From Candidatus Methylacidiphilum fumarolicum (GTDB lineage Bacteria > Verrucomicrobiota > Verrucomicrobiia > Methylacidiphilales > Methylacidiphilaceae), in assembly GCF_949774925.1 (NCBI RefSeq), contig NZ_OX458932.1, forward strand, positions 2,046,001 to 2,110,000: 64,000 nt of DNA, written 5' to 3'. Below are positions 9,950 through 54,203 of this stretch, piece by piece. A program made the translations under genes and the position numbers. How positions within the stretch are numbered: position 1 is the stretch's first letter; each line of letters opens with the position of its first letter. The notes beneath the pieces were generated by a model, which worked only from the letters and a program-made list of their open reading frames with translations, did no database searches and had not been told where the DNA came from.

Positions 9950-10321
9950 ATGGCACGGAAAACTAAGCAAAAGGAAGCCATTGTCAGTGTATTGAGTAGC
10001 GCCGAAAGTCCATTGTCCCCTGCTGAAATTCAAACTAGAGCTTCTTTACTTGTCCCCTCCCTTGGTATAGCAACGGTTTATCGATTACTACGAATCCTAA
10101 AAGAAAACAAAAAAGTCGTAACCGTTGAAATTCCAGGAGAGTCTCCACGATATGAAATTTCTGGAAGGGCTCACCATCATCATTTCTATTGTCGAAACTG
10201 CCACCAAATTTTCGAATTTGGGAAATGCACTGACAAGATCGAAGAACTTGTTCCCAAAGGATTTCTTGTTCAGGAACATGAAATTATTCTCTATGGCCGT
10301 TGTCCTTCTTGTGCAAAATAA
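9950..10321 (+). CDS. Fur-family metal-dependent repressor
   Basis: This 123-residue protein has a winged-helix N-terminal half (SPLSPAEIQTRASL, GIATVYRLLRIL, the recognition helix being TVYRLLR) and a C-terminal dimerisation half with the regulatory site HHHHFYCRNC followed by a late CPSC. Both CxxC pairs that hold structural zinc are present. The family includes Fur (iron), Zur (zinc) and PerR (peroxide); the lack of the extended His/Asp-rich tail and the short N-terminus do not allow a choice between them. The nearest convergent unit is a transposon relic, so the target genes lie elsewhere. Confidence 0.88.
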   Translation: MARKTKQKEAIVSVLSSAESPLSPAEIQTRASLLVPSLGIATVYRLLRILKENKKVVTVEIPGESPRYEISGRAHHHHFYCRNCHQIFEFGKCTDKIEELVPKGFLVQEHEIILYGRCPSCAK

Positions 10322-10379
10322 GAGGAAGAGCTGTCTAAGAAAAAAGCGAAAGTGCGGCCTTATTCCACTTTAAGACATT

Positions 10380-12496
10380 CCCATTCCCCAGCGTTTTTCG
10401 TGGATAGTTCCCCATTAGAAACTGTTCCCAAGAACATGCTCGGGACTTGCTTACGCCTGACCTAAGTTCGTTCTTTTTGCCTTGATTTTGGAACTCGATA
10501 CCAAGGATTTGCCATGACCGTTTCGTTCTCCGGAGAAGCGGCGTGGTATTGACGAGCCGACGGAGCACCCACATGTCGCAATAGCAATAGCACCCGCGTT
10601 GAGTCCATCCGCTGCGGTTTATCGCTGCCTGAAGCCTGCTGCCCTGGAACAGTCCTCCCCTGTTGAGACTCCAATCGGATCATTACCTGTTTCTTCGGGA
10701 ATCCCTTTTCGAAAGAATCGCATGCAGCCGGTTCCACAGCGTCCACAGGCACATCTCCGGATCTTCAATCCTTTCCTTGAAATTGCATGCGCCAACCCGG
10801 TCTGCATAACTCGCATACTAGTAATACTGGCATACAAAATTGTCCCAAGTGTGATTCTTTGGATGGACATCACCACACTTCGGACAAAACCAGAGAGCTA
10901 TAGGCCAGGCTGATCTTTTCTCTAGGGTAACCTCCCCCATGCGCCAGCATTCGATTCGCTCCCGAAGCATCCAGGTCTGCAGCTTGATGATACATCTGGG
11001 AAGCTCCCTACGCAGAGTGCATCCCTGAATGTTGAGGATCTCCGATGTAGTCTCCAAAGGCTTTCGCAATGCAAGAAACTAGCGTAGGCTTCATGTTCAG
11101 CTGCCGTTCGATTTCCGCCTGCGCCTTGCGCAGCCGCTTTAGGCGCCTTTCGCTGCCTAGGTCGTTTTTTCTGATCCGTCCGGCGTTGCACGGGACTTTG
11201 GCATTCCCTCAGATCGAATGAAGCCTACCTCGCTTCTCCCTCTTTTCCTTGTGGACGCAAGACAACCGGACGAGCAGCTTGCCGAAGCCTTTCCCATACT
11301 GCTTCCCATGATCGTCGGTGAAGACCTCGAAGGAATCGGCATCGATGCCTCCGGCTTCGCCTTCCCGCCGCATCAGAATCTTCACTTCCACTGAATAATG
11401 AATCTCCGCCCGCCTCTTGTTCCGAACGATGAGGATGTCGCCCCGAATCTCCATCTAGCCAGCCAGAGGCATCAGGATCCTCTTGCCGAGCTCAAAACAC
11501 ATGAGGGAGATATATCGCCATCCATTCTCCTCGAAGGTCCGGTACATGCAGGCACCAAAGCTCGCCGAGCGGCTTGATTAAGTTCTCGGCTTCCGTCCAT
11601 CCTTCCATGCGGCGGATCTTAGGACCGATCGCCGTCGAAGAGGCGAAGAGCCGCTTCTCGACCGTCTCGCAGGCATCCTTGCGCACCCGCTTCCACATCC
11701 AGTTCTGCAACCCGTTCGGATTAGCATACCCTTCCGTTGCGATCCGATCCCACTCCCCACATTCGCGAGAGGCTTTCCGCGAAGCGGTCCATGCCGGAGA
11801 AAGAAACGAAAAAACACTCACTCTCTGTTGCGTAGCCAAGGCAAGAGTTCCGCAAGAAGCTCGAGCTTCTTGCGGTTTAGCGGCAGGCTCTTCGTTCGGG
11901 ATCATTCGCTGCCTCGTCTTGTCCGGCTTCACCAGGTTTCCCCATGGCCTCTGGTCTTTTCTTTTTGTATTGGCGCAAACTGAAAAGAGGGCTTGGGAAA
12001 GCAGGGAAGGATCGAAAGGAGCTCCTTGTGCATCTCTTTCTCCAGAGAAAGGGACTTGCCCGTTCATGACGGGAATTTTGGGTCCTAAGAGAGGAGCAAA
12101 ACTTCTAGGGGCCATTCAAAACCAAACCGGACCAGCCGGTCTTTGTGGGCGACCATGACCACCAGAGATCTCCCCTCCTCCATCTCCATCAGACGTGAGG
12201 AAATTCTTTCTCTTGTAGTTTGATCTGCTGCTTTTAATCCCCAGCCGTTCGTCCATCGGTTTGACTTGGGCCAGACAAAACCTTGCCAGATCTTGCCGCT
12301 GAGTCTTCAGATCCTCCCCCTTTTGCCCAGCGATGGAGACTGTTGGTAAGCGCATGTGCGGCGCTCTCATCGCCTTGTGGCTGATCACCCGCAGATAAAC
12401 CTTATGGGGATAATACCGCTGATTTGCCCAAGTCCGTTTGGCGGCTAATACCTCTTCCCGCCGTCTTTCGCTACAGCCTGTTGGCGCTCCGCCCAA
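10380..12496 (-). pseudogene. Decayed large TnpB-type transposase gene
   Basis: Read on the minus strand, the GC-rich block contains broken pieces of a long TnpB-like protein. A strand pair AEIHYSVEVKIL is followed by the RuvC-I segment GGIDADSFEVFTDDHGKQYG and GKGFGKLL (about 11454-11270). A zinc ribbon CPKCGDVHPKNHTWDNFVC follows near 10890-10830, and a tail resembling the DVNAA region after that. The N-terminal part runs through 12116-12496 and 11492-12115. Stops and frame changes separate the pieces, so no protein is made. The GIDxGxxEVFTDxxG form is the subtype often found in thermophile and cyanobacterial IS605-like elements and differs from the relic at 4289. Long plus-strand open frames here are antisense artefacts. 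Confidence 0.65.
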
Positions 12497-39231: not shown

Positions 39232-39723
39232 GTGGCTGCCTACTTTGGGGTGGCCAAGAACTCGGATTATAGATGGATCGATGAACGAAGGCTCCCTGCT
39301 TACTGCGTGGGATGGCTCTTTCGTTTCAAGCTATCCGAAATAGAAGAGTGGGTGCGCCAGAACAATGAGCGAGAGATGACTCCAAATTTCGTCCAAAACC
39401 AACCCTCCTCGAAAACCCTGACGAATCGATCAACACCGATGGCATGTTCAAGGAAAAGGGACGGGAATGAGGAAATAGCCAGATTCTTCAACACAACGCG
39501 GTCGTTCATCCAGGGCAACCCTGACTTGCGTGATCCCCAGGTCGAAGGATGGTTCCCCACGCGCCAGAACTTCCGGATCGCCATGCCGTTCAGACGAACA
39601 GATAAAGCTCTCGAAGCCTTGCCTCTAGTCACAGCACCCATTCGACACCAAGACTCCGTGGTCGACGAGTTGAAAAACATCATGCACACCCTTCTTGACC
39701 GCGCATACCAGGAGAACTTATGA
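39232..39723 (+). CDS. Excisionase/MerR-type HTH regulator, N-terminus interrupted
   Basis: The first 45 residues form a winged helix of the HTH_17/excisionase type: VAAYFGVAKNSDYRWIDERR, LPAYCVGWLFRFKLSEIEEW. The expected start is the ATG at 39196, which has a GAGAGGA ribosome site, but its 7th codon is TAG (39214-39216). Family members often have Trp-Val at this point, so TGG to TAG is the simplest explanation. The GTG at 39232 could restart translation and would keep most of the HTH. Residues 48-163 are a second region (LRDPQVEGWFPTRQNFRIAM ... DELKNIMHTLLDRAYQEN) that I do not recognise. The stop overlaps the HNH start by 4 bases. Such HTH proteins frequently head defence operons and act as local repressors. 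Confidence 0.65.
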   Translation: MAAYFGVAKNSDYRWIDERRLPAYCVGWLFRFKLSEIEEWVRQNNEREMTPNFVQNQPSSKTLTNRSTPMACSRKRDGNEEIARFFNTTRSFIQGNPDLRDPQVEGWFPTRQNFRIAMPFRRTDKALEALPLVTAPIRHQDSVVDELKNIMHTLLDRAYQENL

Positions 39724-40469
39724 AAGGACGCAGAGATAAGCCCCAGCATGAGGACCAGGCAGCTAAACGCCCGAAACAGCGCAAGTCGGTTTCATCTTTG
39801 GCGAGCAAGAAGCTTTATCAGGAAGCCGACAATCGCTGTCCATTCTGCGGTGTTGCTGACGTAGCCGTGCTAGAGATTCATCACATAGACGAAGACCCCT
39901 CGAACACTAAGATTGAGAATCTGATTGTCGTGTGCAGGAACTGCCACACCAAGATCACGTGTGAGGAGATTTCGCCGGCGGATGTCCATGCGAAGAAGGT
40001 AGAACTGTTTTGGCTTCACAAGGCGGCACCCTGGCGGGACGAAAAGAGTCTCGGGCAGTCGGTTAATGTGGATGCCGCGAGTGTCAGCGGCAGCATTATC
40101 GCCAACACCGTGACCTTTGGCCGCAAACGGTCACCCCGAATGCAATACCCGGTGGATTCTATCGGTGCGGACGCCATCAAGAAGGGATACACCGACTATC
40201 TGATCAAACGCTACTTCGATTATTGTAAGGCCGACGCTAGCTATCTATGGCAGTTTGCGCCCTTTCAACCATGCCGAAATTCACTTACCATTCAGCGCAA
40301 GTTCAAGGTAAAAACATTCTTCATCCATGTCTCACGCTTTGAGGAGCTCTGTGACTACATCAATGGCCGAGTGGGCCAGACTAATCACGGCTGGTACAAC
40401 TGTGCGCGATCCGTTCCGAATTACGGCTCATTTGAAGAATACGAGGCGGAGCAACTAAGGCATGAATAA
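39720..40469 (+). CDS. HNH endonuclease
   Basis: The 249-residue protein has a zinc-bound HNH core near its N-terminus: CPFC (Cys40, Cys43), LEIHHIDEDPSNTKIENL (His54/His55 and an Asn) and VCRNCHTKI (Cys72, Cys75, His76). The C-terminal 150 residues (DYLIKRYFDYCKADAS, FKVKTFFIHVSRFEELCDYI) have no clear match and may choose the target. HNH enzymes nick or cut DNA, and those beside a methyltransferase often serve as restriction partner. It overlaps the HTH stop by 4 bases and the methyltransferase start by 8 bases, so all three are translationally coupled. Base composition matches the rest of the island, not the flanks. Confidence 0.85.
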   Translation: MKGRRDKPQHEDQAAKRPKQRKSVSSLASKKLYQEADNRCPFCGVADVAVLEIHHIDEDPSNTKIENLIVVCRNCHTKITCEEISPADVHAKKVELFWLHKAAPWRDEKSLGQSVNVDAASVSGSIIANTVTFGRKRSPRMQYPVDSIGADAIKKGYTDYLIKRYFDYCKADASYLWQFAPFQPCRNSLTIQRKFKVKTFFIHVSRFEELCDYINGRVGQTNHGWYNCARSVPNYGSFEEYEAEQLRHE

Positions 40470-41703
40470 TGAGCGTCACATACAATGTCATGCGGAATGC
40501 GAGACAAAAGGGGCGCTGCGGATTCCCGACAGCGTCTACGGACGTCTTGTCTTTTCCCAGTACTGCGCACCTAAGAACGTCTGTCGAACATTGCCAACAA
40601 ATGCCCAATCGCCAATTCTTGGTCTCAATACAGTGTGCCCATATTACACCATGTTCCCCCTGGAATTTCCGCTCCGCCGTCTAACCAATGCCGATAAGAA
40701 CGAGTGGGTTCTTGATCCCTTCTGCGGCCGTGGGACAACCCTATTTGCCGCTCGTCTTCTCGGTCTCGGCTGCGTTGGCATTGACAGCAACCCTATTGCG
40801 GCGGCGATAGCAGCAGCGAAATTGGCACAGACCACATCGGATGCCGTTGTTGAAACGGCTCGGTCAATTCTTACGAGCCAATCCTCGCCGATTTCGATGC
40901 CAGCAGGTGACTTCTGGAACCTCTGCTATCATCCTGATACATTGAAAGAGATTTGCATTCTGCGAGAACGGCTGATGGAGTCTTGTAAGACCGCTGAAGA
41001 GATTGTGTTGCGTGCGCTGCTGTTGGGCATACTCCACGGGCCGCGCAATCGCGGACTTCCGACTTACCTTTCGAATCAGATGCCACGTACATACGCAACA
41101 AAACCCAATGCTGCCGTTCGCTACTGGCAGCGCACCAATAAAACAGAACCGCCACGTGTCGATGTTCTGAATGCTGTGAAGCGCCGGGCGGAATATTCTC
41201 TTAGGATTATTCCGCCGCCTTCCAAAGGAGCAGTCTACTTCGGCGATGCCCAGCATACCGATAGGGTGGTTCCAGCTTCCTACAGATTCAACTGGGTCGT
41301 GACATCTCCACCTTATTTCGGTATGTGCACCTACCGCCCTGATCAATGGCTTCGCAACTGGTTTCTTGGAGGCGCTGATGCTGTGGATTATTCACAGGAA
41401 GGTCAGATCTCTCATTCCGCTGATAGGTTTACCGAGGAATTGTCTAACGTATGGAAATCGGTTGCAAAACGATGCTCTCCAGGCGCCATTCTTATCATTC
41501 GCTTTGGCTATCTGCCTAGCGTTCCAGTGGACGCCCGGGAAATTCTACAAATGTCTTTGAATCTTGCAGATTCCGGCTGGCGCATTCGGCGATGGATCGA
41601 TGCTGGATCGGCAAATAACGGCAGGAGACAGTCCGAACAATTTTGCCGCATGATGAAAGCTGCAACAAGAGAATTCGATGTATATGCCAGGCTCGAGGGA
41701 TAA
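40462..41703 (+). CDS. DNA N4-cytosine/N6-adenine methyltransferase
   Basis: A 413-residue SAM-dependent DNA methyltransferase. The SAM-binding motif WVLDPFCGRGTT (83-93) precedes GIDSNP (106-111), and the catalytic motif TSPPY (281-285) comes about 195 residues later, so the order is motif I, a long middle region, then motif IV. SPPY with serine is most common in N4-cytosine enzymes but also occurs in N6-adenine ones. The 190-residue middle region should hold target recognition. It acts on DNA in the cytosol and is likely the self-marking part of the operon. Its start overlaps the HNH stop by 8 bases; NurA begins 2 bases after its stop. Confidence 0.88.
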   Translation: MNNERHIQCHAECETKGALRIPDSVYGRLVFSQYCAPKNVCRTLPTNAQSPILGLNTVCPYYTMFPLEFPLRRLTNADKNEWVLDPFCGRGTTLFAARLLGLGCVGIDSNPIAAAIAAAKLAQTTSDAVVETARSILTSQSSPISMPAGDFWNLCYHPDTLKEICILRERLMESCKTAEEIVLRALLLGILHGPRNRGLPTYLSNQMPRTYATKPNAAVRYWQRTNKTEPPRVDVLNAVKRRAEYSLRIIPPPSKGAVYFGDAQHTDRVVPASYRFNWVVTSPPYFGMCTYRPDQWLRNWFLGGADAVDYSQEGQISHSADRFTEELSNVWKSVAKRCSPGAILIIRFGYLPSVPVDAREILQMSLNLADSGWRIRRWIDAGSANNGRRQSEQFCRMMKAATREFDVYARLEG

Positions 41704-41705
41704 AT

Positions 41706-42869
41706 ATGTTCGATCCGAATGAACTCCCTAATCTAAAAGCTGCAATCCGTGCCGCAACCGTTCGGGATAGAAGGTTGCTAGACGACCTACGTTCGGAGAT
41801 TCGCGCCCTTGCAGCTGAAGTCAGAGCGATCAAACCCAGGTCCACAACTTCGGTATCCCTGGTGGCGAGCGATGGCGGAAACAACAAGCTCGTTTTTGAT
41901 CCATTTCATGTTCAACTTGTGAGGGTTGTGGATTCTTACGGTGAGCAACTCTGTCTCGACGCGGTGACACCAACAACTGATACCGATGTCCTGAGTCGCG
42001 CGCAGTTTAACGACGATGGATCTCCGAGAACGGCATTGGGTCGTGTAATGGAAGATTTAAATGTGACGCCGCGCACATTGAATCGTCTCAGCCACATGAT
42101 TCCGGATTCAAAGAAGGTGCGAGAGTCTCCCGACGAGATATCCCCCTCATGGGTGCTTGTCTATCGCGACCTCTGCGAGTGGGCTGCGCTTTATGAACGA
42201 ATCTGCTACCGGACCTTTGCCACCGATACGATGTTGGTTCGGGACGGTCTATTGCGCAGCAAGCTCTTTCGCGGAGAATTCTTCATCGAGTTCACAAAAC
42301 GAATAGAAGAATCAATAGAGAGAATACGCCAAGAGACTCGCCGGAAGGTGTTTCTCGTCGGCCTCGCGAAACACAGCAAGGTCTTGGCGCGTTACAGCTT
42401 GGCAATGGCCCTTGAAGGGATATTCCCACATGGCGCGCCTCGTTATGTGAGTGTGCCGCGAACATTGGAAGCGAAAGCTTATGTATGGCCCGAGTATGCC
42501 CGTGGGGCTGAAGTGGAAGATGGTTCCGGTGAGGCCTCCAAGTTCGTTGCTGGAGACATGTACTTTGTGCGGTTCGGAGAGCGAAGTGGCGATCCCCTCT
42601 GGACGGTCGATATACTGAGCAGCCAGGCCCAAAAGGCGGATGAGGTATTTGGATATCTGCTTGCAGATGCCATCCACGGATTTCCTGTTCCTTTTTATCC
42701 ACGATGTCTCCAGAAAGCACATGAATTCGCTGAAATCGTAGATTTTGATCTCGACATTCTTCAAGATGAGGTCATTGTAGCAGTACGCAGCTTACTCAGC
42801 GAAAAGGAAATCCCCGCATTGGAGGCCTTGCGTCTACAAGGCGATGTTTCGGCACGGAGGTATGAATGA
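41706..42869 (+). CDS. NurA-domain nuclease
   Basis: The 387-residue protein starts at the ATG at 41706, behind a GAGGG ribosome site; a longer frame from 41643 lies inside the methyltransferase. An N-terminal helical arm (residues 10-45) leads to NurA motifs: the first metal aspartate in VASDGGNNK (residue 56), a glutamate-bearing helix LCEWAALYERI (157-166), the second acidic loop MLVRDGLL (176-183) and the lysine motif VGLAKHSKV (218-226). The C-terminal HGFPVPFYPRCLQKAHEFAEI (324-344) is the typical last helix. NurA nucleases form a ring-binding complex with HerA; archaeal NurA resects DNA ends. The stop overlaps the HerA gene start (ATGA). Bacterial NurA-HerA pairs are known from accessory islands. 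Confidence 0.75.
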   Translation: MFDPNELPNLKAAIRAATVRDRRLLDDLRSEIRALAAEVRAIKPRSTTSVSLVASDGGNNKLVFDPFHVQLVRVVDSYGEQLCLDAVTPTTDTDVLSRAQFNDDGSPRTALGRVMEDLNVTPRTLNRLSHMIPDSKKVRESPDEISPSWVLVYRDLCEWAALYERICYRTFATDTMLVRDGLLRSKLFRGEFFIEFTKRIEESIERIRQETRRKVFLVGLAKHSKVLARYSLAMALEGIFPHGAPRYVSVPRTLEAKAYVWPEYARGAEVEDGSGEASKFVAGDMYFVRFGERSGDPLWTVDILSSQAQKADEVFGYLLADAIHGFPVPFYPRCLQKAHEFAEIVDFDLDILQDEVIVAVRSLLSEKEIPALEALRLQGDVSARRYE

Positions 42870-45010
42870 AACTCTTCTCACGCGAAACGACAGTTGGCAT
42901 ATTCAGAGGCTTCAGTGAAGGGGGGTTAGAGTTTCACGCCGATCTCGTACTGCCTTACAAGAATGAGTTTCAGCGCGCTCCTATGCATGGTCAGTTTCTC
43001 GTTGTTCAGCTAGAAGACGAGGATGAAGCAGTCCTCGGTCGCATAACGTCAATCTCATCTCAAGGACGTCTCGTTTCCTCGGCAGGCGAGGACTATGGCA
43101 TTCGAGCCGTTTCAGAAGAGCGGCCGATACCTGAAGACCTCCGTGAACAGTACCTCAAGTATCGAGTGAACATGCGAGTGCTGGGTGTGGTGAGAGTCGT
43201 CAACGGCGATCTCGTCTTTGCGGCCTCCCACCGCCGTCTGCCGCACGTCGGGAGCAAAGTGGCCTTTCTGACCGATGAGGTCCTACGGGAAGTAGCCGGT
43301 CACAACATAGTTGATGCCGCTGAGATAGGATATTTCGCACTGGGCGAATTCATCTATGCTTCCGGTGATTCACGGCTTGTCCGTGCTCCCTGGATGCAGA
43401 TTAAGAGTCCGCTGGTAATTCCGAAATTCCACGTTCTTGACCTTGTGGCAAGACGAACTCTTGTTTTCGCAAGGGCGGGCTTTGGTAAGTCAAATCTCGT
43501 GAAACTTCTATTCGCCAATCTTTATCGAAACACGCCTACGGTAGAGAAACGTGGAGGCAAGCAAGTACCAGTCGGAACTGTGATTTTCGATCCCGATGGC
43601 GAATATTTCTGGCCAGATGATAAGAACCGCCCTGGGCTTTGTGACGTGCCCGAATTGCTGGATAAAGTGGTTGTCTTCACGCCGAAGGCTGGTCCCAGTT
43701 CATTTTATCAATCTTTCGTTGCCGGAGATATTCGTTTAGACATCCGTAGGTTACGACCAAGTGATGTGATTTCAATTGCTTTGCCACCGGAAAAGCAGGA
43801 TCAGCAGAACGTACGAAAATTGAAGGGTATGAATGAGGCCGATTGGCATCAACTTGTCGATCTGATCCATCGGGATGGGAATGGTGCCGATGGGCAGACA
43901 GTCAGGCGACTGATAAGGCTTGAGGACAGCCAGGATGCTGAAATGGTCGCGGCACGGGCCAACATGACAACAATTGTTCGAATGCTGCACGACCCGAGCA
44001 GCCAGATGATGGATATGCTGCTTGTAGCCCTACGGGAGGGTCGAATATGCGTTATTGACGTATCTCAAATGCGGGGTATGCCAGCGCTTGTTCTATCTGG
44101 ACTTATCCTGCAACGAATATTTGATCACAACCAGGAAGAGTTTACAAAGGCCAAGCCAGAAACAATTCCGGTCATCGCCGTCGTTGAAGAGGCGCAAGCT
44201 GTCCTTGGCAGCTCAGGGAGCTCTGGCGAAGGACCCTACGTATCCTGGGTCAAAGAGGGACGTAAATATGACTTGGGGGCTATCTTGATTACGCAGCAAC
44301 CAGGATCAATATCAGGAGAAATCCTGAGCCAAGGGGATAACTGGTTTGCGTTCCATCTTCTGTCGGCCGGTGATCTTCGAGCGGTAAAGAGCGCAAATGC
44401 ACATTTCAGCGATGATATCCTGTCATCTCTTTTGAACGAGCCAATCCCTGGTCACGGCGTGTTCTGGAGTAGTGTGGGCGGCAAGAGTTATCCAATCCCT
44501 ATTCGTGTGTTGTCCTTTGAGGGGCAATACCAAGCGCGAGATCCGAAGTATGACCAACCAGCGAGTGAAACCGCTGCTGTGGGACTTCGTCAGCGATTTA
44601 GCAATGCGCTGGCATCTGCGCGTCGTTTAGTGCCTGTCGTTGATACGCCGCATACCCCACAGGCTATGGGGGCCTCGGTTCTTCACGAGGAACCGGAGGC
44701 GGATGAGGAACAAGATGCCCTGGCAATCTACGAGGCAGCGACGATTGAAGCATTCAAGAACGACAAGGGCTTTTTAATAAGCAGGCTGACACAACAAGGC
44801 TTACCGTGGAGGGGTGTCAAAGAACGGTTAAAAAAACTCCTTCCCGACGTGTTGTCGGATCGGGACACGATTGCACACCAACTGGTCCCCAAAGCGATGA
44901 CCGCTTTGTTCGGAGAACAGGGAATTGGCTGGACTACAGAAAAGCGGCCTTCAAAAAGCGGATCAGAATTCACAACATGGATTGTGGTGATTCAAGAAGG
45001 AAGCCGATAA
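42866..45010 (+). CDS. HerA-like hexameric ATPase 1 (NurA partner)
   Basis: A 714-residue HerA/FtsK-superfamily ATPase. Residues 1-190 form a beta-rich HAS-barrel-like region. The P-loop is FARAGFGKSN (201-210), followed by VIFDPDGEYFW (239-249) and the Walker B strand VIAVVEEAQAVLG (435-448). A conserved block GRKYDLGAILITQQPGSI near residue 465-482 with its Gln matches the HerA sensor region, and a DNA-binding-like C-terminal tail follows. HerA hexamers pump double-stranded DNA and regulate bound nucleases. The gene overlaps nurA by 4 bases and is followed after 22 bases by the SIR2 gene, so its natural partner is NurA. It differs clearly from the second HerA copy. Confidence 0.88.
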   Translation: MKLFSRETTVGIFRGFSEGGLEFHADLVLPYKNEFQRAPMHGQFLVVQLEDEDEAVLGRITSISSQGRLVSSAGEDYGIRAVSEERPIPEDLREQYLKYRVNMRVLGVVRVVNGDLVFAASHRRLPHVGSKVAFLTDEVLREVAGHNIVDAAEIGYFALGEFIYASGDSRLVRAPWMQIKSPLVIPKFHVLDLVARRTLVFARAGFGKSNLVKLLFANLYRNTPTVEKRGGKQVPVGTVIFDPDGEYFWPDDKNRPGLCDVPELLDKVVVFTPKAGPSSFYQSFVAGDIRLDIRRLRPSDVISIALPPEKQDQQNVRKLKGMNEADWHQLVDLIHRDGNGADGQTVRRLIRLEDSQDAEMVAARANMTTIVRMLHDPSSQMMDMLLVALREGRICVIDVSQMRGMPALVLSGLILQRIFDHNQEEFTKAKPETIPVIAVVEEAQAVLGSSGSSGEGPYVSWVKEGRKYDLGAILITQQPGSISGEILSQGDNWFAFHLLSAGDLRAVKSANAHFSDDILSSLLNEPIPGHGVFWSSVGGKSYPIPIRVLSFEGQYQARDPKYDQPASETAAVGLRQRFSNALASARRLVPVVDTPHTPQAMGASVLHEEPEADEEQDALAIYEAATIEAFKNDKGFLISRLTQQGLPWRGVKERLKKLLPDVLSDRDTIAHQLVPKAMTALFGEQGIGWTTEKRPSKSGSEFTTWIVVIQEGSR

Positions 45011-45032
45011 TCACAGGAAAAGAGGAAAAACG

Positions 45033-46445
45033 ATGAACGCGACTTTCCGCTTGTCCGATTATCAGATACGCATCGGGAAAGAGGACATCATAGAGCGGCA
45101 CCTACATGGCATTTTGAGCGCTGATTCTGAAAACGCCGAGAACCAAGAGAAGGCTCGGAAATCTCTCGATGAGCTCCTCAAGGAAATGCGCGTCCGGTTT
45201 GGCACAATAATAAAAACCGACAACCTCTCATTCCTGCTCGGAGCCGGTGCCTCCCTATCTGCTGGAGGTGTGTCTCTTGCAAATATACCGAAGTCGCTCG
45301 AGAAGGCACTCATCGACAAAGCGAAGGGCGAGCAAAAAGGGAAAGAAGCTCCCGCCTGGATAGAGCTTTTCTATATGATTGCTTCAGTCCTGTCCCGAGA
45401 AGACTTCTCGTACGTCACCCGCTCCCAACTTTTCCAGTCGAACGAAGAGAAGAACATTCCCGCAATTGGTGTGAACCTTGAAGCCTATCTCAGCCAATTG
45501 CAAACATGGCATGCCGGAATGCTCGATGTGACCGAGATATTGAAACTGACAGGCAGCTCTGAATTGTCAATCGCTAAGAGCGATTTGAGTCGTTTGATCA
45601 AAGAGATAACTGGCTCTTTGACGATTCTCCTAAACCTGCCAAAGTCTGGCTTGGATGAGCCACTTCAGCATCATAGAAAATTCATTAAGAAGGTCCTTAC
45701 TCGACCGTTAAACCTGCGACGTGCAAATCTCTTTACACTCAACTATGACACCCTGATTGAACAAGCCGGAGATGCCGAAGGAGCAGTGCTTGTCGATGGA
45801 TTCGTGGGAACACTTCGGCGTGTTTTCAGGCCAGAGTCTTACGACATAGATTTTTATTTTCCCGCACAGACCACTGAAGGACGGGTTCATCGATTTGATC
45901 GGGCCCTTCATCTTTATAAGCTTCATGGCTCAATTACTTGGCATCGCTGCGAGCCGGATTGGGAAAATCCATTCGGAGTGTATGCAACATTCTATAATCA
46001 GGACTGCTGTACAGACGATGTGTTGATCTACCCCACACCCTTAAAGTACGGACAAGCGCTGGGTTTGCCGTATTCCGAACTGTTCCGTAGATTTGGAAAT
46101 GCAATAGCACAACCACAATCAGCCCTGTTTGTGATCGGTTATGGCTTTGGGGATGATCACATCAATGCATTGATCCGACAGGCGCTTGCCATTCCGAGCT
46201 TTACGCTCGTCGTGATGGACCCTGATCCGAAGAACGATTTCGTTAGGAAACTGGAGAAGCTCGAAGATGAACGCGTCTGGATTGTCAAGGGCGGAGAGTT
46301 AGGGACATTCGAAGGTTTTGTTACGAAGCTTCTGCCTGACCTAAGAGAAGAGGAAATCGATGCCAAAGTAATGAAAACCTTCAAGGAGCTATCGTCGTTT
46401 TCCGGTCGAAAAGCGGAAGGTGCGGAAGAGGAAAAAGGAAAATGA
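45033..46445 (+). CDS. SIR2-domain protein, predicted NADase effector
   Basis: The 470-residue protein carries a SIR2-like domain with the NAD-binding GAGAS (70-74), the catalytic asparagine and aspartate in FTLNYDT (Asn237, Asp239), the catalytic histidine in YKLHGS (His298) and the cap GYGFGDDHIN (369-378). Helical extensions at both ends are typical of phage-defence SIR2 proteins rather than sirtuin deacetylases. In SIR2-HerA systems this domain consumes NAD+ after a phage signal and stops the cell's growth. Its stop overlaps the second HerA gene start (ATGA), an organisation like the known SIR2-HerA (Nezha) pair. All catalytic residues I can check are in place, so it is probably active. 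Confidence 0.9.
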   Translation: MNATFRLSDYQIRIGKEDIIERHLHGILSADSENAENQEKARKSLDELLKEMRVRFGTIIKTDNLSFLLGAGASLSAGGVSLANIPKSLEKALIDKAKGEQKGKEAPAWIELFYMIASVLSREDFSYVTRSQLFQSNEEKNIPAIGVNLEAYLSQLQTWHAGMLDVTEILKLTGSSELSIAKSDLSRLIKEITGSLTILLNLPKSGLDEPLQHHRKFIKKVLTRPLNLRRANLFTLNYDTLIEQAGDAEGAVLVDGFVGTLRRVFRPESYDIDFYFPAQTTEGRVHRFDRALHLYKLHGSITWHRCEPDWENPFGVYATFYNQDCCTDDVLIYPTPLKYGQALGLPYSELFRRFGNAIAQPQSALFVIGYGFGDDHINALIRQALAIPSFTLVVMDPDPKNDFVRKLEKLEDERVWIVKGGELGTFEGFVTKLLPDLREEEIDAKVMKTFKELSSFSGRKAEGAEEEKGK

Positions 46446-48685
46446 TGACAAGTGACCATGAAATTGGCCGAGTCGTCGCAGTCGACACCGCTCAGGTGAC
46501 GGTTGAATTGAACCACGACCTGAAAGCCCTGACCCGATCCACCTATGAGGGTACGCTAGAAGTCGGGCGTATCAACTCTTACATCATAATTCCTGTCGGT
46601 ACGCGACGTATTGTCGCTATGGTCACACGTGTTCTATTGACAGAGGAAAGTGAACTGAAAGCCGATAAGACAATGGTGATATTGCCTTCATCCCGAAGGT
46701 TGATGAAGGCAACGATGATCGGTACTATTGACGAGGGTAGATTCCGACAGGGCATCAATTTGTTTCCGGTCCTTGATTCGCCAGTTCTTATCACGACGCG
46801 AAAGGACCTCGATGCGATATTCGGTAAGTCTTCCCTGCAAGATGATGTTCCATCAGATGAACCGGGTTTCTGCATTCCAATTGGTCGATCCGCGATCTTC
46901 CAGGATTACGACATCAAAATCAATCCAGACGCATTCTTCGGGAAACATGCCGCTATTATCGGCAGCACTGGCTCTGGCAAGTCCTGCACGATTGCCACTA
47001 TCATTCAGTCGATTATCAAACAGGCATCGGTAAAGCAAACGCGATTCATAATCCTCGATACCAATGGTGAGTACCGCACATCATTCCAAAAGCAAAATGA
47101 GGACAAGGCATGGGCTGACGCGGACGCAGCATTCAAGGCGCTCTATATACCTACCGATTCTACGGAAAAAGAGAAGCTCGTTATCCCCTACTGGTTCATG
47201 GATTCTGAGGACTTCGTCCGTTTGTTCAGGGCATCTCCTGGCGTTCAGCGGCCAGTCTTGCTTAACGCTTTGTCGTCTGCTCGTGACTCTGAGGAAGGTA
47301 CCGAGAACTGGCTCCATGTTCGCCAGGACATAATTATGGAGTGCAGACGGATACTTAGGCTCTGTTATGGTACTGAAACCAAAAATGCGCAGTCAATCAG
47401 GCAGTTATGTGATGGGCTTATTATCCACATCGAAGAGCCTGCCATCGTTGATCATCTGCGCCTGTTATCTCAACATTACCCAGATATTACGGCCGATAGT
47501 ATAAAAACATGTTTCGAGCAAATACGAGATATTGCACGGGGAGGAATCCGAACCAAAGGGCAGCAATATGAAGCCTATGCAGTCATCGATGTGAATAAAC
47601 GATGGCGTATTGAGAATGCCATCAACCCGTTGTTGGGTAAGTTATTACAACCTCCAGAAAATAGCACTGTACTTAGCACGGCGTCGGCAGATTGCCCGAG
47701 GTTTTTTAGTAAAAGCGCATTTCGCTACCGAAATCTTGAGCATGCCATGACTCGTGACGAAGTAAGCTCTTTGCAGGCTCGGGATAATTGCTCCACGATG
47801 ATAATGCGCATTTATCGGCTACTGGAGGACTCGCGATTCGAGTTTTTGTTCGGACCCATATGCTCGGAATGGCCATCGGTCATGCACTCTCTTGCTACTT
47901 TCATGCGGGACATTCTGGGTGCTGAGTGCTCGAGTAAAACAGAACTCACTGGTACAGAAGTGTGCCCGGAAGGGTTACTACCTTTCTATGACAGGCAACG
48001 ACGTGGTTCGACTCGGTCTAATGTTGTTATCATTGATCTTAGCCTCCTCGCCTCCGAAGTTCTTGAAAATGTGACCGCACTTATTGGACGCCTTATTCAT
48101 GAGTTCTTGCAACGACTGAGCGATCCGGTGAGTGGGGTAGGCCGCGGGGAATACCCGGTCGTTCTTGTTCTTGATGAGGCCCAAAACTATATCCGCGAGG
48201 GCAGAAAAACGGAGGAAGACTCCATTTCGAAACTTGTTTTCGAGCGCATCGCCCGAGAAGGTAGAAAGTATGGGTTGGGATTGGTTGTAGCTTCCCAACG
48301 CCCAAGTGAATTATCCAAAACGGTTCTCTCGCAGTGCAATAGCTTCATCGTTCATCGTCTGCAGAATCCTGAAGATCTGCGCTATTTCCGGGAAATTGTG
48401 CCCGGCATATACGGCCAGCTTCTCGATCAACTTCCAGCTCTTGCCCCACGAAGCGCCTTGGTATTGGGAGAGTGTGTTCAGGCTCCCGCGTTGGTGGAAA
48501 TGCGAGAAGCCAGTCCTGTTCCAAAAAGCAAGAACCCAAAATTCTATCGTAGCTGGACCCAAGAGGAGAAGCACCCTGATTTTGAATCCATATGTGAAAG
48601 GTGGGAGGGTAAGCAACCCGGTTGCCCAGCTCCTGCTAATCAGCCTCATGGTGGTGCGCCTGAGCATGGAGGTGAGACGGAATGA
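46442..48685 (+). CDS. HerA-like hexameric ATPase 2 (SIR2 partner)
   Basis: At 747 residues, it has an N-terminal HAS-barrel (IGRVVAVDTAQVTVEL ... GRINSYIIIPVG), the P-loop IIGSTGSGKSCT (172-183), FIILDTNGEYR and the Walker B VVLVLDEAQNYI (about 573-584). The block GRKYGLGLVVASQRPSELSK near residue 605-625 and SALVLGECVQAPALVEMREA are the most HerA-like parts. It is the last intact gene of the operon. It overlaps the SIR2 stop by 4 bases, so the SIR2-HerA ratio is fixed at translation. A ring of HerA2 is expected to sit on DNA and to gate or assemble the SIR2 effector. Confidence 0.9.
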   Translation: MMTSDHEIGRVVAVDTAQVTVELNHDLKALTRSTYEGTLEVGRINSYIIIPVGTRRIVAMVTRVLLTEESELKADKTMVILPSSRRLMKATMIGTIDEGRFRQGINLFPVLDSPVLITTRKDLDAIFGKSSLQDDVPSDEPGFCIPIGRSAIFQDYDIKINPDAFFGKHAAIIGSTGSGKSCTIATIIQSIIKQASVKQTRFIILDTNGEYRTSFQKQNEDKAWADADAAFKALYIPTDSTEKEKLVIPYWFMDSEDFVRLFRASPGVQRPVLLNALSSARDSEEGTENWLHVRQDIIMECRRILRLCYGTETKNAQSIRQLCDGLIIHIEEPAIVDHLRLLSQHYPDITADSIKTCFEQIRDIARGGIRTKGQQYEAYAVIDVNKRWRIENAINPLLGKLLQPPENSTVLSTASADCPRFFSKSAFRYRNLEHAMTRDEVSSLQARDNCSTMIMRIYRLLEDSRFEFLFGPICSEWPSVMHSLATFMRDILGAECSSKTELTGTEVCPEGLLPFYDRQRRGSTRSNVVIIDLSLLASEVLENVTALIGRLIHEFLQRLSDPVSGVGRGEYPVVLVLDEAQNYIREGRKTEEDSISKLVFERIAREGRKYGLGLVVASQRPSELSKTVLSQCNSFIVHRLQNPEDLRYFREIVPGIYGQLLDQLPALAPRSALVLGECVQAPALVEMREASPVPKSKNPKFYRSWTQEEKHPDFESICERWEGKQPGCPAPANQPHGGAPEHGGETE

Positions 48686-48851: not shown

Positions 48852-49598
48852 ATGGATATTCCACGGATCTTCAACATCACCGAAAGCGCTCACCGTATCC
48901 ACAACCCGATCACATCCGAGAAGCTCGCCATTCTCGATGCGGCGCTGCGCCTGGAATCTAAGGCCCGGGTGCTCGACCTCGGCAGCGGTTCGGGAGAAAT
49001 GCTGTGCGCTTGGGCGCGTGACCACAACGTCATCGGCACCGGCATCGACATGAGCCGGTTGTTCAACAAGCAAGCGAAGGGCCGTGCTGAATAACTCGGT
49101 GTCTCCGATCGAGTCGAGTTTATCCATGGCGATGCTACCGGCCACGTTGCCGACCAAAAGGTCGATGTGGCGGCCTGCGTCGGCGCCACGTAGATCGAAA
49201 GAAGAGCGGTCGGCATAATCGAGTTTCTGGCGCGGAGCCTGCGCACCGGAGGGATCATCCTCATCGGTAAACCCTACTGATGGCAGATACCGCCGATGAA
49301 AGATGTTGCCAAGGGTTGTCTTGCCCACGCGATCTCCGATTTTCTCATGCTTCCGGAACTGCTTGCGTATTTCGGCCGCTTCGGCTACGTCGTTGTCGAA
49401 ATGGTTCTGGCTGACCATGATGGCTGGGACAGATACGAGGCGGCCAAATGGCTCATCATGCGCCGATGGCTTGAAGCCAATCCTGACGACGAATTGGCAA
49501 AAGAGGTTCTAGCCCAACTGACCTAGGAACCCGTGCGCTACGCAACTTACACACGTGAGTACCTGGGATGGGGCGTGTTCGCTCTGATGACGCGGTGA
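48852..49598 (+). pseudogene. SAM methyltransferase pseudogene with four in-frame stops
   Basis: One frame reads as a complete class I methyltransferase of about 249 codons: MDIPRIFNITESAHRIHNPI, VLDLGSGSGEML (SAM loop), GTGIDMSRLF, VEFIHGDATGHVAD, VDVAACVGAT, FLARSLRTGGIILIGKPY, DGWDRYEAAKWLIMRRWLEA, YLGWGVFALMTR. It is interrupted by TAA at 49092, TAG at 49191, TGA at 49278 and TAG at 49524, with no frameshift anywhere. Two of the stops fall where homologues of this type usually have Trp, so single G-to-A changes would explain them. The gene is dead but decayed only by point mutation. Its substrate class is unknown (ubiquinone/small-molecule type motif). Confidence 0.82.
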
Positions 49599-50524: not shown

Positions 50525-51064
50525 CTAGATCGATTGAATATCTAGAGATAAAGGATTTTGAGATATTTTATTCTTACTGTTGAGTCTTTTTTCTGGAGCA
50601 AAGAGTGATTGACTTCTTATAAACCCCTTGAGATACCACCCTTTTTCTTCCTCGTTATAATATAACCACAAACAACTAGCCGGTTCCATTTGAAAAAAAG
50701 GTGAAACCTTACTTTTTACTAGAAGCCTGACAGCGAGTTTTGAAAGGGTAGGTTCATGCCCAACAATAATGGAATCTTCTTCAATTTTTTTTATTTCTTT
50801 GAGCAGATCAGAAATTGAATCTCCAGGTAAAAGGCCTTTTAAAAGCTGTAACTTGATTTGCCTTGAGAGAGCTTTTGCAACAATTTCAGCTGTCTGTCTG
50901 CTTCTATCCTTTGGTGAATGGAAAATTTTTTTAGGACTAATGCCAGCGAATTTCAAAAACTTACCAACCTGCAAGGCTACTTCCCTGCCTCTAGCAGCTA
51001 GGGGACGGTCTGGATCCAGTTCTTTTGGAATCGCTTCTGCATTTTGTATAAGCACTAGTTCCAT
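50525..51064 (-). CDS. SixA-like phosphohistidine phosphatase lacking the RHG motif
   Basis: The 179-residue protein has the order of a SixA/phosphoglycerate-mutase-fold enzyme: start MELVLIQNAEAIPKELDPDR, PLAARGREVALQVGKFL, the second arginine in HSPKDRSRQTAEIVAKAL, and IVGHEPTLSKLAVRLL with the second histidine. In active enzymes the first motif is LIRHGEA: the Arg grips phosphate and the His becomes phosphorylated. Here it reads LIQNAEA (codons CAA AAT GCA), so both catalytic residues are gone. It may bind phospho-ligands without hydrolysis. The C-terminal 30 residues are basic and extend past the usual end. Confidence 0.75.
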   Translation of the reverse strand: MELVLIQNAEAIPKELDPDRPLAARGREVALQVGKFLKFAGISPKKIFHSPKDRSRQTAEIVAKALSRQIKLQLLKGLLPGDSISDLLKEIKKIEEDSIIVGHEPTLSKLAVRLLVKSKVSPFFQMEPASCLWLYYNEEEKGWYLKGFIRSQSLFAPEKRLNSKNKISQNPLSLDIQSI

Positions 51065-51281
51065 ACCACATTAACTAGCATAAATGATAATTTTTTTATT
51101 GACCTTTTGAAAGTTTTTTCTTTTGGGAGCTTTTTTCTAATATTTCTTTTCTTTGCTGGGGAGAACCGCTCTATCCATTAACACATATTAAGGAGTAGCA
51201 TACCATTTCTGCCTTAGAGAAAAGACTATCTATACTTTTATACTTTCCCTCTAACCGGTTCTTTGTTTTATTTTCCTTTCT

Positions 51282-52856
51282 ATGGATAGTCAGCCTACAC
51301 CAGAAATTCCCTGGAAGCCTCGACATAATCCTTGGATAATCGCTCTTTCGGTGATGCTTGCTACATTTATGGAAGTCCTGGACACCACTATCCTCAATGT
51401 TGCTCTTCCTTATATAGCAGGTGGACTTTCTGCCAGCAATTCTCAAGCCACTTGGGTTCTTACGAGCTATCTTGTTTCCAATGCTGTTGTTTTGCCAATG
51501 ACAGACTGGCTTGGCAGGACTTTCGGAAGGAAAAGACTGCTTCTGGCCTGCATTTCACTTTTCACAATCAGTTCGGTTATGTGTGGTGGGGCTCCTAACC
51601 TTGGAGCCTTAATTTTTGCTAGAGTCCTGCAAGGAGCTGGTGGGGGAGGGCTTCAGCCCATTTCTCAAGCAATATTGCTAGAGAGTTTCCCTCCGGAAAA
51701 AAGAGGCCAAGCTATGGGCCTATTCGCTCTTGGGGTAGTGGTTGCTCCTATTTTAGGCCCAGTGTTTGGAGGCTGGTTAACAGATAATCTCAATTGGAGG
51801 TGGTGTTTTTTTATTAATTTACCGGTGGGAATATTTGCAATTATAGCTTCTTATTTTACGGTAGAAGATCCTCCATACTTAAGAAGGAATTCAGAAAAAA
51901 AATTAGATATCCTCGGTTTTTCTTTTCTTTGTCTTTGGCTTGGCTGTCTTCAAGTCCTTCTTGACAAGGGGCAAGAAGACAATTGGTTTGATGCCATCTG
52001 GTTAAGATGGATGGGGGGACTATCTCTTTTTGGAATGATTTGTTTTATTTTTCGTGAGCTCAAAACGCCTAATCCGCTTGTCGATTTAAGAATTTTTAAA
52101 GACAAAAATTTTACTGTGGCCGTCTTTGAAGTATTCATCGTTGGGGTAGTCCTCTATGCCACGCTGTCGGGTTTACCTCTTTTTTTGCAAACCCTCATTT
52201 CCTATACTGCTTATCAGAGTGGCTTAGCAATTAGTCCTAGAGGCATAGGTGCTGTAGCAGGAGCTATGATAGCTGGCAGATTGCTTGGGCTAATAAGCGG
52301 CAGGCTTATTGTGGCTCTTGGATTTATATTCCTGGCTATATCTTCTTTTCAAATCGGTTTTTTTAATCTTGAAATAGCCAAGCTAAATATCATCATTCCA
52401 AACATCATCAATGGGATTGGTGCTCCTTTCGTATTTATCCCGCTGACGACAGCAGCTGTTATTACGCTCAAGCAAGAACAGATTGGAGCGGCTACTGGCC
52501 TATTCAACCTTTTTCGAAATATTGGAGGCAGCATAGGTACCTCTATGGTTCAAACCTTTATCCAAAGACTTGCTCAAGCCCATCAAATTATCCTGGTTGG
52601 GTATTACACACCAGACAATCTCAATTATTTATCAAGGTTTTCAGGGATCGAAAGCTATCTAGCCATGCACAATGGTTCCGTTCAAGGTGCTTCCCAAGCC
52701 CTAAAAGTTTTGTATTCTACTCTAACCAATCAGGCAAACCTTCTTGCCTACATGGAGATTTTTCAGGTAATGGGCTGGATCTGTGTCTTTTCCATTCCTT
52801 TGGCTTTTCTTCTGGCCAAAGATTCAAAAAAAACTGGGCCTATAGCTATGCATTAA
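51282..52856 (+). CDS. MFS drug exporter, DHA2 (EmrB) type
   Basis: A 524-residue membrane protein with about 14 hydrophobic segments. Near the start is the DHA2 motif LDTTILNVALPYIA, then WVLTSYLVSNAVVLPMTDWL, the loop motif GRTFGRKRLLLAC between TM2 and TM3, GAGGGGLQPISQAILLESFP in TM4-5 and GPVFGGWLTD in TM5. Such proteins expel drugs or other amphiphiles with protons and usually work with an EmrA adaptor, which is not encoded next to it. The unit is single and stands before enolase. Confidence 0.9.
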   Translation: MDSQPTPEIPWKPRHNPWIIALSVMLATFMEVLDTTILNVALPYIAGGLSASNSQATWVLTSYLVSNAVVLPMTDWLGRTFGRKRLLLACISLFTISSVMCGGAPNLGALIFARVLQGAGGGGLQPISQAILLESFPPEKRGQAMGLFALGVVVAPILGPVFGGWLTDNLNWRWCFFINLPVGIFAIIASYFTVEDPPYLRRNSEKKLDILGFSFLCLWLGCLQVLLDKGQEDNWFDAIWLRWMGGLSLFGMICFIFRELKTPNPLVDLRIFKDKNFTVAVFEVFIVGVVLYATLSGLPLFLQTLISYTAYQSGLAISPRGIGAVAGAMIAGRLLGLISGRLIVALGFIFLAISSFQIGFFNLEIAKLNIIIPNIINGIGAPFVFIPLTTAAVITLKQEQIGAATGLFNLFRNIGGSIGTSMVQTFIQRLAQAHQIILVGYYTPDNLNYLSRFSGIESYLAMHNGSVQGASQALKVLYSTLTNQANLLAYMEIFQVMGWICVFSIPLAFLLAKDSKKTGPIAMH

Positions 52857-52928
52857 CAAATTGAACTCCAAAAACTCTATCGATATTTTCTTGATTGGTT
52901 TTATTTTTCTGCTTTGCTAAGGAATAGG

Positions 52929-54203
52929 ATGGCTAACACATTCATACGCAAAGTACTCGCAAGACAAGTCCTTGACTCAAGGGGAAATCCTACAGTAGAA
53001 GCTGAAATTCATTTAGAAAGTGGAATCAAGGCTAGAGCGATTGTTCCCTCTGGAGCAAGTACAGGGAGTAACGAGGCCCTGGAATTAAGAGATGGTAACA
53101 AGGAACGGTATGGGGGCAAAGAAGTTTCTAAAGCCATTAGGAATATAACAAAAACAATAGCTCCGGAGCTAATAGGAAAAGATGCAGCTAACCAAGCGGA
53201 AATTGATCGGATATTGATTGATCTGGATGGCTCGAAAAACAAATCTGTCTTAGGAGCCAATGCCATTTTAGCAGTTTCTCTTTGTGTGGCACGGGCAGCA
53301 GCCATGGCCGAAGGCATTCCACTGTATAGGCATCTTGGAGGCTCACAAGCCATCACTCTTCCCATTCCTTTTGCCAATGTTATCAATGGTGGCGTTCATT
53401 CGGATGCGCCTCTTGATTTTCAAGAATTTATGATCGTGCCTAAAGGCGCTCCCTCATTCAAAGAAGGACTCAGGTATGGAGTAGAAATTTTTCATACCTT
53501 AAAAACTCTCCTCCAAGACAAAAAATTGGGAACAGGCATAGGAGATGAAGGAGGATTTGCCCCAGTTATTTCATCTGCTGATCAAGCTTTCGATTTACTT
53601 ATCGAAGCAACAGAAAGGGCTGGATATATTCCAGGAAAAGATGTTTTTTATGCCATGGATGCTGCGGCAACCGAACTTTTTGAAGAAAGCTCCAAAATTT
53701 ACGTATTCAAAAAGTCTCAACATATAAAGTTGCCAGCTTCGCATCTTATTGAACTGTACCGAGAGCTTGCTAAAAAGTATCCTCTTGTGTCAATCGAAGA
53801 TGGGATGGCTGAAAGCGATTGGGATGGCTGGAAACAGCTTACCCAACAGCTTGGAACTTCCCTTCAGCTGGTCGGAGACGATCTGTTTGTTACCAACAAG
53901 GAATTTCTTGAGCAAGGAATTAAAGAAAAAGTGGCCAATGCTATTCTTATCAAAGTAAATCAGGTGGGAACCCTGACAGAAACTTTTCATACAGTAGAAA
54001 CGGCTAAAAGGCATGGATACAAAGTCATGGTCAGTCATCGATCCGGAGAAAGTGAAGATCCTTTCATCGCCGATCTTTCAGTTGCCTTAAATGCCGGGCA
54101 AATTAAAACAGGATCTTTTTGTCGGTCAGATCGGTTATGTAAATACAACCAACTGCTTCGAATTGAAGAAGAGTTAGGAGAAAGTGCTATTTATGGAATT
54201 TAG
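52929..54203 (+). CDS. eno: Enolase
   Basis: The ATG at 52929 ([27 protein letters not shown]) is chosen because AAGGA lies 5 bases upstream; an earlier codon at 52914 adds five odd residues. The 424-residue protein has [32 protein letters not shown], the metal ligands in [24 protein letters not shown] and [10 protein letters not shown], the catalytic lysine in [13 protein letters not shown] and [17 protein letters not shown]. It interconverts 2-phosphoglycerate and phosphoenolpyruvate. DivIC/FtsB follows 20 bases later, an eno-ftsB order that is common in bacteria. Confidence 0.97.

Follow-up and report, generated by a model that had tools for sequence, protein, structure and literature searches.

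Pseudo-phosphatases are, to our knowledge, known mainly from eukaryotes. STYX and MK-STYX, eukaryotic proteins of the tyrosine phosphatase type, offer a model of how such a protein may work, as conserved inactive phosphatases with a binding or regulatory role; their fold and catalytic chemistry are unrelated to those of the SixA type. In branch 2 of the histidine phosphatase superfamily, the flea salivary proteins XcAP-1 to -3 have lost the His of the RHG motif and are reported to be inactive on pNPP and to be binding proteins with biogenic amines and leukotrienes as their ligands (PMC10728186). Hence, the inactive histidine phosphatase that serves as a binder is a general kind that is already known. 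The SixA of Escherichia coli is reported to act on NPr-P and pHis-Ndk, with its His8 required (PMC7948535, PMC6282199, PMC12934123). SixA H8A has no observable effect on NPr-P; in a blot time course the signal kept was 64% with the H8A control versus 86% with buffer (PMC7948535); it leaves the phosphorylation of EIIANtr unchanged (PMC6282199) and has no action on pHis-Ndk (PMC12934123). In the open-access literature, searched by titles and the opening lines of abstracts, no bacterial pseudo-SixA was named; nor was any open-access paper found that pairs Methylacidiphilum with a (phospho)histidine phosphatase, or QHG with a histidine phosphatase.

Here, we analyze a window of 64,000 nucleotides from the genome of Candidatus Methylacidiphilum fumarolicum, a single contig of 2,476,671 bases, and within it an open reading frame (50525..51064, reverse strand) whose translation, a protein of 179 aa starting with MELVLIQNAEAIPKELDPDRPL, we refer to as pseudo-SixA. 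The first-pass annotation had noticed in it the segment LIQNAEA where active enzymes have LIRHGEA, with the second Arg and the second His of the pocket retained, and the raw sequence bears this out. Codons 7-9 (51038..51046, reverse strand) read CAA AAT GCA from 51046 to 51038, and the resulting QNA replaces RHG or RHA with N8 where the phospho-acceptor His stood. R54 (in SPKDRSRQTA; 50903..50905, reverse strand) aligns with the second pocket Arg of SixA, and H103 (in VGHEP; 50756..50758, reverse strand) with the second pocket His. Two of the four residues of the pocket (Arg-His, Arg, and His) are kept, R54 and H103, and two are replaced, Q7 and N8, these being equated with R7 and H8 of SixA by alignment and not from model coordinates.

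Pfam His_Phos_1 (PF00300) scores pseudo-SixA at 35.8 bits (cut-off 21.7) and covers only residues 18-73, and the NCBIfam SixA model (TIGR00249) extends over residues 1-144 with 73.3 bits, thereby missing its cut-off of 74.5 by 1.2 bits. An AlphaFold2 model built on a 22-sequence alignment has a mean pLDDT of 85.2 and a pTM of 0.80; the folded core comprises residues 1 to about 156, and from residue 159 the confidence is low, residues 159-179 forming a variable tail. The top Foldseek matches of this model are SixA-like proteins. VIA-align ranks E. coli SixA first (1ujb, Z 22.2, rmsd 2.0 over 151 residues), in a tie with the Nostoc protein 3f2i (Z 21.5); Z was at least 8 for 364 of 999 aligned chains, and the best 50 of these 364 belong nearly all to the histidine phosphatase superfamily. 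Such SixA-like best matches point to a SixA fold, as had been proposed from the letters, and the model has the alpha/beta/alpha architecture of branch 1 of the superfamily. The likeness to SixA (TIGR00249; 1ujb) embraces the fold over residues 1-155, the second Arg, and the second His. The differences are the Asn in place of the phospho-acceptor His of RHG/RHA, found in all five genomes of the genus, the Gln in place of the first Arg, and the score below 74.5, and with these residues catalysis would not be expected. XcAP-1 to -3, on the other hand, are secreted animal proteins of branch 2 in which the second His is reported to be lost as well (PMC10728186).

A scan of genome contigs with pseudo-SixA returned a sole relative, from Methylacidiphilum sp. 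Yel (91% identical), and a family profile matched in 14 of the 62 genomes of the order, with the strong full-length matches (>270 bits) falling in two genera of one family. Every Methylacidiphilum genome examined (5/5) has an intact QNA copy, encoded by CAA AAT followed by GCA or GCG. The sister genus (g3), perhaps Methylacidimicrobium, has an intact orthologue in five of seven genomes, four with AHG and one with THG, and here the catalytic His is kept; the THG protein (L011) has also lost the Arg at the position of R54, so that both Arg are missing. Across the clade the second Arg is kept in 9/10 and the second His (H103) in 10/10, and the residues invariant beyond the pocket include W133, K119, and G147. 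Another sister-genus genome, G006, carries a VHG copy that a frameshift around residue 42-50 breaks in two (L037, about 10026-10500, reverse strand), the conserved neighbors being absent from the 20 kb around this fragment, and a profile search of the seventh, G012 (83% complete), gave no match to pseudo-SixA. The gene is hence dispensable in at least one lineage of the sister genus. The third genus of the family, represented by one genome, has an intact SixA-like paralogue only.

Orthology of the QNA and AHG genes is confirmed by their gene order. In 10/10 intact loci pseudo-SixA is divergent from a gene for an MFS transporter (524 aa; 51282..52856, forward strand), the two sharing in the window an intergenic region of 217 bp (51065..51281), and the enolase gene (52914..54203, forward strand) adjoins in 9/10, the tenth contig stopping within the MFS gene. 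The neighbors of pseudo-SixA (MFS, enolase, DivIC/FtsB-like, and HemN-like radical SAM proteins) include no phosphorelay gene, and a function deduced from the operon or its neighbors was rejected, the order being conserved within two genera yet offering no phosphorelay link. The ORF lists of the window and of the sister clade L218-L221, read by eye, have no neighbor genes in common.

To survey the distribution of the motif, 387 genomes of the phylum were searched with two profiles, A1 matching in 166 of them and A4 in 190. The loci read numbered 156, with 80 further A4 matches taken largely in order of E-value and with copies already included and the broken G006 copy omitted; 130 sequences were left in the census when identical ones were dropped. 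Since the census consists of the best-scoring matches to the two profiles, its motif counts are not those of a random sample: RHA 65, RHG 42, RHS 3, and RHC 2 among the proteins that have both Arg and His, and QNA 6, AHG 4, THG 1, QHG 3, RSG 1, RSA 2, and RTA 1 among those that lack one or both. One entry (L106) duplicates the gene of the window; the six QNA sequences represent five genomes and the tree has 129 rows. The earlier description of QNA as a replacement of the whole catalytic triplet consequently holds for N8, but not for A9, which is no loss because RHA is the commonest motif (65/130). Only N8 is diagnostic, for Ala at 9 is ordinary and Gln at 7 is also found where the His is kept (QHG, 3/130).

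In the tree of these SixA-like proteins, the QNA and AHG/THG sequences form one clade (support 100/97). Its sister group (fork 91/93; the group itself 90/77) consists of three QHG and two RHG proteins, the latter being L047 and an Ilyobacter protein (L091). The verrucomicrobial QHG types L043 and L044 and the two RHG proteins resemble pseudo-SixA in an HS-K-R signature (HSPKDR, HSGKTR), and L043 and L044 also in the Gln that replaces the first Arg; all four differ from it in keeping the catalytic His. The third QHG protein, L155, has the same Gln and His in an ORF that is truncated and lacks its second half. Plasmid records searched for QHG-type relatives gave a single match, to Ilyobacter, with RHG, and a search from Ilyobacter gave five weaker records; a PDB sequence search with L044 gave nothing at E 0.01. 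The change from RHG to QNA claimed by the first-pass annotation stands as regards the lost phospho-acceptor, but would not have occurred in one step, given the AHG/THG of the sister genus and the QHG or RHG of the nearest relatives outside it. By parsimony, Arg 7 would have been lost before the two genera split, probably to Gln and perhaps already in common with the QHG relatives, and His 8 would have been replaced by Asn once, on the Methylacidiphilum stem. Four proteins of the verrucomicrobial family f54 (L192 RSG, L199 RTA, L204 and L205 RSA) likewise have Ser or Thr for the phospho-acceptor His and, unlike pseudo-SixA, keep the first Arg. Their separate clade (100/97) shows that the His was lost there independently; three of their four genomes have another RH copy in the census.

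The gene is under purifying selection and is not decaying. For the core, taken as the first 156 aligned codons, dN/dS by the Nei-Gojobori method lies between 0.058 and 0.210 in all 10 QNA pairs and between 0.103 and 0.219 in all 10 AHG/THG pairs, much like the 0.080-0.122 of the intact paralogue of the genus (9/10 pairs computable); when the tail is counted in and the full length compared, the QNA pairs range from 0.075 to 0.314 (9/10 computable). With dS saturated (>1) in 6/10 QNA pairs the single ratios are rough, and none is near 1. Under a simple Jukes-Cantor simulation, the probability that QNA is retained neutrally between two genomes is 6e-4 at d = 1.5 and 1.7e-4 at d = 2, and the former active-site positions are therefore constrained rather than abandoned. 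Of the features that define a pseudophosphatase, the lineage-wide loss of an essential catalytic residue and purifying selection are thus found, the second on core ratios with dS saturated in 6/10; a non-catalytic binding or regulatory role would be the remaining one.

All 10 genomes with an intact pseudo-SixA also encode another SixA-like protein, whose motif is RHA (RHATA); its G010 copy runs off the contig end. This paralogue exceeds the TIGR00249 cut-off in 5/5 genomes of the genus. It occurs in 12/13 genomes of the family whether or not an intact pseudo-SixA is present, and the co-occurrence of the two therefore has no statistical weight. The RHATA paralogues form a separate clade (100/100), which rules out that pseudo-SixA is a recent duplicate of them; judging from the tree, it is an old separate subfamily, and this weakens a simple decoy model.

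Our preferred reading, to which we give a probability of about 0.55, is that pseudo-SixA is a conserved pseudophosphatase of the SixA fold, disarmed stepwise, that binds a phosphohistidine protein or other phospho-ligand without turnover. That catalysis through the His has been lost has good support: at N8 the phosphohistidine intermediate would be unable to form, and no SixA-type action would be expected. The idea of a pseudo-enzyme, put forward by the first-pass annotation, gains from the genus-wide QNA, the purifying selection, and SixA as best structural match. Because R54 and H103 are kept, the binding of a phospho-group is plausible and a binding pseudophosphatase is favored; less surely, this half-pocket together with the conserved surface would hold the ligand. 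Going beyond an inactive but conserved protein, we infer that the likeliest ligand is a phosphohistidine protein such as HPr~P or NDK~P, which pseudo-SixA would bind stoichiometrically, either shielding it from the intact RHATA paralogue or presenting it to that enzyme. Against binding, H103 may be retained for the fold alone, the half-pocket is not kept everywhere to judge by the missing R54 of L011, and no phosphorelay gene adjoins.

Four other explanations have to be weighed against this reading. A sequencing or assembly error, or a lone mutant strain with RHG in its orthologues, can be dismissed as refuted, since five genomes of different species agree on QNA and even differ synonymously at A9. 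Plain decay of a functionless gene would accord with the frameshifted copy in G006, the lack of a copy in G012, and the variable C-terminal tail, but the gene is intact in 5/5 and 5/7 genomes of the two genera with the low core dN/dS reported above, and a pseudogene is on these ratios disfavored and most improbable. It is somewhat less far-fetched, though still unlikely, that pseudo-SixA remains a phosphatase by another route, in which the retained R54 and H103 would activate water or another residue. The catalytic His is still present in the sister genus, and a fructose-2,6-bisphosphatase in which Ala replaces the His reportedly retained more than a tenth of its activity (PMC10728186). SixA H8A, on the contrary, was dead in the studies cited above, and in pseudo-SixA the first Arg is missing as well. 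The earlier verdict that the protein "should not be a phosphatase" accordingly keeps its force from the SixA mutants, although the bisphosphatase deprives it of its absolute character.

The alternative that comes nearest is a neofunctionalised non-catalytic protein from which phosphate binding is gone, and which would be a partner or regulator of, for example, the MFS transporter or enolase, or would pair with the intact SixA paralogue as a heterodimer. The constancy of the MFS and enolase neighbors speaks for such a role, as do the partial loss of the pocket, extending in L011 to both Arg, and the clade-wide invariance of W133, K119, and G147 beyond it. Gene order alone is no proof of interaction, however, and the retention of the second Arg and second His in the clade (9/10 and 10/10) speaks against it. 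This role accounts for the data nearly as well as a phospho-binder does, but we hold it to be doubtful by comparison with the preferred reading.

A narrower version of the binding pseudophosphatase is bolder, and we advance it only tentatively. Pseudo-SixA would here be a dedicated phosphohistidine reader that, bound to HPr~P (or NDK~P), protects or reports the phosphorylated state and opposes the paralogue, having been disarmed first at the Arg and then at the His, with a parallel in another verrucomicrobial family. In support of the phospho-ligand proposed in the preferred reading, matches to HPr, EI, and NDK occur in 13/13 genomes of the family, and phosphohistidine carriers that a SixA-fold protein could recognize therefore exist. 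Hpt gave no match in these genomes (0/13), the same search matching in 8/14 control genomes, which disfavors an Hpt phosphorelay as substrate. The HPr of the window's genome has 105 aa and a GIHARPA site and adjoins an EI-like ORF; the start of a further ORF nearby looks to us like that of an HPr kinase. NDK appears as several partial matches within one frame of about 400 aa (G000:C1:1580177-1581277 and its counterparts), suggesting a fused or tandem NDK.

A disarmed yet selected bacterial SixA, an AHG intermediate, and an RSx parallel would together make up a natural series leading from a phosphatase to a binding protein. A naturally occurring protein that binds phosphohistidine might also be gained from pseudo-SixA; this modification is labile, and few reagents for it exist. 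Annotation by score alone would label at least one orthologue an active SixA, for the G003 protein reaches 74.6 and is the one in five of the genus that passes the TIGR00249 cut-off.

Elsewhere in the window, a HerA-like (DUF87) ATPase, a SIR2-like protein, and a second HerA-like ATPase are encoded in tandem (42866-48685, forward strand). PADLOC matches in this segment are SIR2 with an E-value of 6e-83 and HerA, for the second of the ATPases, with 1e-155, and on these matches we regard it as a putative anti-phage island of the SIR2-HerA type with two HerA-like proteins. It adjoins genes for a DNA methylase (40462-41703) and an HNH protein (39720-40469). An ORF of 80 aa (48852-49094, forward strand) resembles the start of a SAM methyltransferase (DLGSGSGEM) and may be a relic at the island's margin.
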